DNA from: Pseudomonas putida
Lineage (GTDB): Bacteria > Pseudomonadota > Gammaproteobacteria > Pseudomonadales > Pseudomonadaceae
NCBI RefSeq assembly: GCF_002741075.1
Contig: NZ_CP016634.1
Span: forward strand, 5,446,501-5,510,500
DNA length: 64,000 bases
Direction: 5' to 3'
Below, piece by piece: positions 57,518 through 57,706 of the stretch. The notes below the pieces were generated by a model. It made no database searches, was not told where the DNA came from, and saw only the letters and a program-made list of their open reading frames with translations. Within the stretch, counting starts at the first letter, position 1; every line of letters begins with the position of its first letter. The position numbers were made by a program, and so were the translations under genes.

Positions 57518-57706
57518 GGTATGGTTTTTGAACTCGGAGGGGTTTCACCAAGAGGCGCTGGCTTGCTTCTATCGTCGTTTGCAAACGATGCATTCTTTAT
57601 CGGCGCTTTGGTGAAGGGGTGGGGCGATGTCTCCCACGGTCTGTACTGCGCCTAACAGTCAGAATCGGTTTGTTCGTCCCACCACCCCTTCGAGTATCAC
57701 CATACA
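57518..57706 (-). ncRNA. Candidate bridge RNA in the 5' non-coding end of the IS110 element
   Basis: Read on the minus strand, two stem-loops follow each other. Loop 1: basal 10-bp stem (57682-57691 with 57613-57622), apical CTGACTG/CAGTACAG hairpin. The 3' side of its internal loop, GTGGGAG (57632-57638), is fully complementary to the REP target CTCCCAC including the CT core; the 5' side has AAACC, as in the target's left half. Loop 2: basal TTCACCAA/TTGGTGAA (57608-57615 with 57544-57551), apical hairpin around CGTTTGCAAACG (57576-57587). Its 5' side has AAAGAAT (IS end ATAGAAT) and its 3' side GCAAG (complementary to CTTG at the other IS end). This is the layout described for IS110 bridge RNAs. 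By-eye evidence only. Confidence 0.55.

Follow-up and report, generated by a model that had tools for sequence, protein, structure and literature searches.

The left non-coding end of an IS110-family insertion sequence in Pseudomonas putida very probably encodes a minus-strand bridge RNA (seekRNA), whose first loop would choose the REP sequence used as target and whose second loop would recognize the element's own ends. We give this reading, which is drawn from sequence comparison, a probability of about 0.92. The element lies in a 64,000-nucleotide stretch of contig NZ_CP016634.1, termed the window, in which all positions below are counted. What the comparison establishes directly is where the element ends, which sites it occupies, that guide segments covary with their targets and that the stems of the RNA covary between their arms. 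The bridge-RNA interpretation had been put forward from the window sequence by itself (the sequence-only reading), and the guide-target covariation and compensatory stem changes now support it.

In the proposed mechanism, the element would excise as a circle whose joined ends create a promoter (TTGCCC-17-TATGGT), and transcription from this junction promoter would produce the bridge RNA, which the transposase would bind. In loop 1, the left guide would pair with ..CCCG-CT on its bottom strand and the right guide, GTGGGAG, would pair with CT-CCCAC on its top strand, while loop 2 would pair with the joined ends of the element itself (ATAGAAT-CT-TG). Recombination at CT would then insert the element. 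RNA pairing of this kind would explain why such elements reside in REPs, as was reported in 2006 (PMC1525189), a principle that has already been published. The comparison provides in addition a natural retargeting series, in which the loop-1 bases of one family have followed REP variants, and other sites in some lineages, across many genomes.

The element, its target and the candidate RNA

The ends of the element were fixed by comparing the seven near-identical copies found in the genome, independently of the end motifs used for its relatives (Table 1). The junctions read ...CCCG / CT / TGTATGGTG... on the left and ...CATAGAAT / CT / CCCAC... on the right, and all seven copies lie in REP-like sequence at G / CT / CCCAC, with CCTAC in one of them. 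There are 209 occurrences of the REP tail CTCCCACAGG in this genome, compared with 20 for the reversed control. The transposase matches Pfam DEDD_Tnp_IS110 and Transposase_20 as well as NCBIfam NF033542 ("IS110 family RNA-guided transposase"), and in an alignment of 12 transposases, the window's among them, D102, D105 and S240 are invariant and D18 and E60 nearly so. It thus has the DEDD RuvC-like domain and the Transposase_20 domain with a conserved serine that define the IS110 group. The longer non-coding region is upstream of the gene, as is also typical of that group, and spans 189-233 nt from the core to the matched gene start in 106 copies, while the right end of the window's element is only 3 nt beyond the transposase stop codon. 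The start in the consensus of transposase homologues corresponds to a MAM motif at about 57502.

Table 1. Features of the insertion sequence and of its candidate bridge RNA, in window positions.
Feature	Positions	Strand	Basis or remark
IS110-family insertion sequence	56537..57706	-	1170 bp between CT cores; ends from comparison of 7 near-identical genome copies
IS110 transposase	56540..57517	-	325 aa counted from GTG
Left CT core (target/IS junction)	57707..57708	-	Copy comparison
Right CT core (IS/target junction)	56535..56536	-	Copy comparison
REP target, left half (..GGTAAACCCG)	57709..57724	-	End comparison
REP target, right half CCCAC, predicted to pair with right target guide	56530..56534	-	End comparison
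Candidate bridge RNA, predicted extent, ends approximate	57532..57699	-	Fold compared with shuffles; kept in homologues
Putative left target guide ACAAACCG; core guide AT at 57664-57665	57666..57673	-	Alignment window tracking left half of target
Putative right target guide GTGGGAG, complementary to CT+CCCAC	57631..57637	-	Permutation test; guide/target table
Putative left donor guide AAAGAAT (donor end ATAGAAT)	57592..57598	-	Motif comparison
Putative right donor guide GCAAG; CAAG complements CTTG (core + start of left end)	57562..57566	-	Motif comparison
Stem 1 (target loop), 5' arm GAAGGGGTGG	57682..57691	-	Arms covary
Stem 1 (target loop), 3' arm CCACCCCTTC, 3-nt overlap with stem 2	57613..57622	-	Arms covary
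Stem 2 (donor loop), 5' arm TTCACCAA	57608..57615	-	Arms covary
Stem 2 (donor loop), 3' arm TTGGTGAA	57544..57551	-	Arms covary
Closing helix P0, 5' arm (ACTCGAAGGGG)	57685..57695	-	RNAalifold consensus, folds
Closing helix P0, 3' arm (CCCCTCCGAGT)	57532..57542	-	RNAalifold consensus, folds
-10-like TATGGT, putative promoter only in circle	57699..57704	-	Sequence match
-35-like TTGCCC near right end, 17 bp from -10 once ends join	56550..56555	-	Sequence match

The stretch proposed as the bridge RNA does lie in the non-coding end, between the end of the element (57706) and the transposase gene. The sequence-only reading did not state its strand; all the motifs and stems that it named are read on the minus strand, where AAACC, GTGGGAG, AGAAT, CAAG and stems of 10 and 8 bp occur in the order given, with the restriction, taken up below, that both stems cannot be complete together. 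It had also held that four guides in the expected order would be hard to obtain by chance. All four in order were indeed found in only 2 of 20,000 dinucleotide shuffles, but the motifs had been chosen post hoc and three of them are common: AAACC was present in 9815 shuffles, AGAAT in 4306 and CAAG in 13,429, compared with 281 for GTGGGAG. Hence GTGGGAG, which pairs with CTCCCAC and so is complementary to the REP target across the core as claimed, is the only motif notable from the window sequence alone. AAACC, which had been matched to the other half of the target, is present, but by itself it is at chance level, and to fit it needs a shift of one base out of the register of the family. In that register the window's guide and core, ACAAACCG-AT, agree with the target TAAACCCG-CT at five of eight positions plus the T of the core, the core guide AT sharing only that T with CT. 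It is the comparative evidence, rather than these motifs alone, that lifts the candidate above chance.

Several other observations concern the surroundings of the element. It is flanked by tauB-tauC (54845-55639, 55636-56475) and tauD (57776-58609), which are in the opposite orientation and have NCBIfam equivalog matches above cut-off; insertion into the intergenic REP between tauC and tauD has therefore split a taurine gene cluster (54845-58609). A second GTGGGAG is located at the GTG start of the transposase (57511-57517), inside CCGTGGGAG, the same nine bases as at the right target guide. It is absent from the 37 relatives aligned with the window's element and may be a ribosome-binding site or due to chance. 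When the whole window was searched with Rfam at gathering thresholds, no family was found at the bridge-RNA locus; elsewhere, on the minus strand, C4 antisense RNA (RF01695) was matched at 50689-50777 (74 bits) and Pseudomonas sRNA P34 (RF02405) at 25251-25610 (100.3 bits).

Guides and targets among relatives

A transposase search revealed relatives in 164 of 398 Pseudomonas genomes. Sequences were fetched for 100 of 101 chosen loci (G125 is missing), and at most three copies were taken per genome among the matches listed. Of 107 copies, 106 had both ends recognizable; these come from 38 Pseudomonas genomes, that of the window among them. The remaining copy (L103), beside a contig end, has no recognizable left end. 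Another 15 loci had recognizable ends, six being Pseudomonas singletons and the remaining nine belonging to other genera. The motifs used to find ends, CTTGTATG and ATAGAATCT or ATAG[AG]ATCT, favour elements with ends of this type, and the left ends of the relatives align well. Named genomes were searched with an alignment query, as a single-protein query gave no relative there; among the 80 loci obtained, 34 repeat left ends already seen and 12 have no recognizable end or run off the locus. Plasmid records contained no relative at E 1e-30.

Whether the guides covary with the target in homologues, a check suggested by the sequence-only reading, was answered positively for the left target guide in several ways. 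A scan of a 38-element alignment, with 188 alignment windows in four target/strand settings, gave one clear peak, located at the left target guide compared with the left half of the target on the same strand (excess 1.35 of 8, z 7.42). In a repeat scan ranked by z the left guide reached 7.21, and the best of the other windows (752 in total) reached 2.89. The 17 distinct left guides match their own targets at 5.65 of 8 positions, compared with 4.02 after permutation, a value as high not being reached in 20,000 permutations. The same holds for the longest exact match, where none of 5000 permutations was as high in any of the sets compared: 51 distinct elements (of 55; 5.80 vs 4.18 permuted), a strict close subgroup of 17 that leaves out G080 and G433 (6.41 vs 4.87), a second subgroup of 22 (5.21 vs 4.10), a mixed set of 11 mostly distant elements (6.18 vs 4.30) and 19 elements from named genomes whose left ends are new (7.10 vs 5.24). 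The longest match among the last group, 11 nt including the core, is in a Natronospira assembly (L198). When elements were compared with their nearest relatives having a different left guide, the guide fitted its own target better in 29 of 37 pairs and worse in three, with five ties (two-sided sign test on 29 vs 3, about 3e-6). Two elements in one genome have the left targets TTCCCTGG and TTCCTTGG, and their guides are exactly identical to each.

Some left guides do not follow this pattern. The guides AAGCCTAG (G301) and AAGCTCGT (G383, G128) agree less well in register with their own targets than with those of others, and by eye these three, together with the guides of the window and of G364, gain matches on a shift of one base. 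With longest match as the score, G555, G550, G091 and G186, 4 of the 51 elements, are worse with their own target than with the average of the others. In G186 (L030) the guide AAAGCCCG is beside an unlike left flank although the right half pairs perfectly; this left flank is a repeat of the right flank (CCCACATTTGGTAG), which suggests that the site was rearranged or that the element re-inserted nearby. Two elements of one genome, G437 (L149 and L169), encode transposases that are each 40% identical to that of the window and occupy TTCC(C/T)TGG / CT / CATCG, a target unlike the Pseudomonas REPs, and the left guide of each matches its respective target variant.

The right target guide also covaries with its target, as shown by permutation and by a small number of swaps. 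Among the 51 distinct elements its match averages 7.01 compared with 6.21 permuted (0 of 5000 as high), while the wrong strand gives 3.09 vs 3.16, and this test is the independent support for the right guide as predicted from sequence. The swaps are found in a table of 155 copies in which guide strings were picked by eye and which is thus a description rather than an independent test. In it, the guide is fully Watson-Crick paired with CT and the next five bases in 148 copies. GTGGGAG faces CTCCCAC in 140 copies; for the nine CTCCTAC targets, six copies have GTAGGAG and three keep GTGGGAG with one G:T wobble; the two CTCATCG targets have CGATGAG in one case and CGACGAG, with one mismatch, in the other; the single CTCGGCT has AGCCGAG; and three copies, all from G080, have GTGAGAG on CTCCCAC with one mismatch. 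The scan of the 38-element alignment gave no peak at the right guide, and matched pairs were mostly tied (8 better, 4 worse and 23 ties; n = 35), because targets are nearly all the same on this side. Likewise, the 19 named-genome elements, whose targets are all CTCCCAC and in which some windows are misplaced, gave no signal (5.95 vs 6.11). The longest right match is worse with the own target in 4 of 51 elements (G367, G254, G437a and G091).

These results bear on two other explanations. One, which we regard as unlikely, is that the region serves merely as a structured leader in the 5' untranslated part of the transposase mRNA, or as template for an antisense regulator such as Asr9 of ISPpu9, and that the protein itself chooses the REP. 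ISPpu9 provides the precedent, as its transposase is regulated by a 244-nt leader and an antisense RNA of close to 180 nt (PMC8450116), and the closing helix described below is directly upstream of the transposase gene, but such a role leaves unexplained why the loop-1 bases change with the target between closely related elements, and do so with the strand order of IS110 bridge RNAs. A leader role could, on the other hand, coexist with a bridge RNA. The other, very improbable explanation is chance, namely short motif matches in a stretch of 189 nt that are aided by REP palindromes and by the shared ancestry of elements and REPs; AAACC, AGAAT and CAAG each appear in about 22 to 67% of shuffles, and the left guide on the wrong strand also exceeds its permutations (4.22 vs 3.78, 0 of 5000 as high), which is attributed to the palindromes, but the excess on the right strand is much larger (5.80 vs 4.18) and peaks at one of 752 windows, the left guide follows its target between nearest relatives, the right-guide swaps match the changed targets in six of nine CTCCTAC copies and in two other target types, and no other window scanned in the left end covaries with the target above z 2.9.

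Under the bridge-RNA reading, loop 2 is expected to recognize the donor ends. The motifs proposed for it, AGAAT and CAAG, are present in the order claimed, within AAAGAAT-GC and GCAAG, yet each is at chance level alone. The donor end hardly varies, with ATAGAATCT present in all but one of 121 copies, which is due in part to the use of that motif to locate the ends. In the exception, G671, the donor end is ATAGGATCT and loop 2 has AGGGATCT, a single matching change. Conservation of the motifs and this one co-change support donor pairing by loop 2 and do not prove it. At the handshake base, which in the description of IS621 follows the right donor guide and pairs with target position 7, G080 has a match (target C, RNA G), while mismatches occur in G692 (A and C) and, as read from the alignment, in two of the three copies of G139 and in G004 (target C, RNA T). 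One left end (L016, from G091) is without a donor loop, although the element has a nearly full-length transposase frame and a REP-like site; either an RNA supplied from another locus or decay subsequent to insertion may account for this.

Stems of the predicted RNA and a closing helix

The predicted RNA has the arrangement of a bridge RNA, with two stem-loops containing internal loops, the target loop first and the donor loop second. A separate 5' stem-loop of the IS621 type was not found in the window's element and its close relatives, which have no room for one before stem 1. The basal stems had been described as perfect, and pairings of 10 bp (GAAGGGGTGG/CCACCCCTTC) and 8 bp (TTCACCAA/TTGGTGAA) are present, but TTC at 57613-57615 is common to both and so they cannot both be complete. 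In the best fold of a 171-nt minus-strand RNA (57530-57700), with -63.3 kcal/mol (z -4.36, 0 of 200 shuffles as low), the 8-bp stem is kept, stem 1 is cut to 6 bp (GGUGGG/CCCACC) and GGGG pairs with a 3' CCCC; a 146-nt piece that lacks most of the 3' arm of stem 2 keeps the 10-bp stem 1.

The basal stems are conserved in homologues, with compensatory changes. RNAalifold gave 29 pairs for 40 elements, 6 of them changed on both sides, although the covariation term is small (-0.97). The uninterrupted helix formed by arms from the same element is longer than that formed by arms from different elements for both stem 1 (10.27 vs 8.91; 41 distinct arm pairs) and stem 2 (5.74 vs 5.00; 35 distinct arm pairs), with 0 of 5000 as high in each case. 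The stem-2 comparison omits one of the 55 elements; of the others, two form no helix and five form one of only 4 bp.

The pairing of GGGG with the 3' end is part of P0, a conserved helix between the 5' and 3' ends that encloses both loops. The RNAalifold consensus includes seven P0 pairs, and for one of these the element of the window has changes on both sides; the arm sets CTTGAAGGGGT/ACCCCTTCAAG and CTTGCCGGGG/TCCCGGCAAG point to compensatory change. Helices between the end segments are likewise longer within than between elements (8.72 vs 7.52; 46 arm pairs, 0 of 5000), a comparison that takes the longest helix, which is often not P0, the window included, so that P0 alone is not isolated. 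At least five pairs between the two ends are present in the best fold of 41 of 53 elements (53 of 54 were folded, the RNAs of G214, G100, G341 and G334 being cut to 152-157 nt by the end rule), and holding the last 14 nt unpaired has a median cost of 9.5 kcal/mol. Most of the distant relatives are without end-to-end pairing in the best fold, and in distant relatives the P0 segment may also form a 5' stem-loop.

As P0 and the long form of stem 1 use the same GGGG, they are mutually exclusive. It is conceivable, though we think it doubtful, that the bridge RNA of this Pseudomonas branch forms a three-way junction able to adopt either of two mutually exclusive states, P0 or the longer target-loop stem, and that a switch between them, for example by 3' processing or translation of the transposase mRNA, could couple RNA maturation to recombinase loading. 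A literature search found no paper joining bridge RNA, three-way junction and IS110 in the text that it covered, and we do not claim that P0 is novel.

Known systems and the predicted junction promoter

Bridge RNAs have been predicted in 85.7% of IS110s, and ISPpu10 is among six elements for which target and donor guides are predicted (Durrant et al., 2024; PMC11208160, Extended Data Fig. 10c). ISPpu10 is an IS110 element of P. putida KT2440, described as found only in REPs, into which both it and ISPpu9 insert with 2-bp repeats (Tobes and Pareja, 2006; PMC1525189), and it resembles the window's element in having predicted guides. The window's element is a relative, its transposase being 64% and 70-73% identical to proteins that a source names ISPpu10. 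Given the same architecture and the guides already predicted for ISPpu10, the window's element is a further case of a known system. With the IS621 bridge RNA, as described in PMC11208160 and PMC11208158, it shares the CT core, a REP target, a target loop followed by a donor loop, a left guide followed by a right one, and the DEDD and serine residues. IS621 differs in its separate 5' stem-loop, whereas in the window's subfamily the corresponding segment can pair with the 3' end; a stem-loop like that of IS621 is apparent, as read from sequence, in distant relatives such as L143.

The seekRNAs of ISEc21, ISPa11 and others are also RNAs from the longer non-coding region that set the target, and in IS110 members this region is upstream of the gene, but those reported are 70-100 nt, unlike the window's candidate (PMC11187229). 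ISPa11 targets REPs of P. aeruginosa but is of the IS1111 type and, unlike the window's element, has its RNA downstream (PMC11187229). ISPpu9 is, like the window's element, an IS110 element in REPs of P. putida with small RNAs, Asr9 and Ssr9, near its ends; Asr9 is antisense to the transposase leader, whereas the RNA proposed here would be sense (PMC8450116).

A promoter reconstituted across the circle junction is a further feature of bridge-RNA elements, and here it is present as a sequence match. The predicted sigma-70-like promoter TTGCCC-17-TATGGT would form only when the ends join. Over 57 junctions the match to the -35 hexamer averages 3.46 of 6, compared with 2.45 when shuffled and 1.71 in 121 integrated left flanks.
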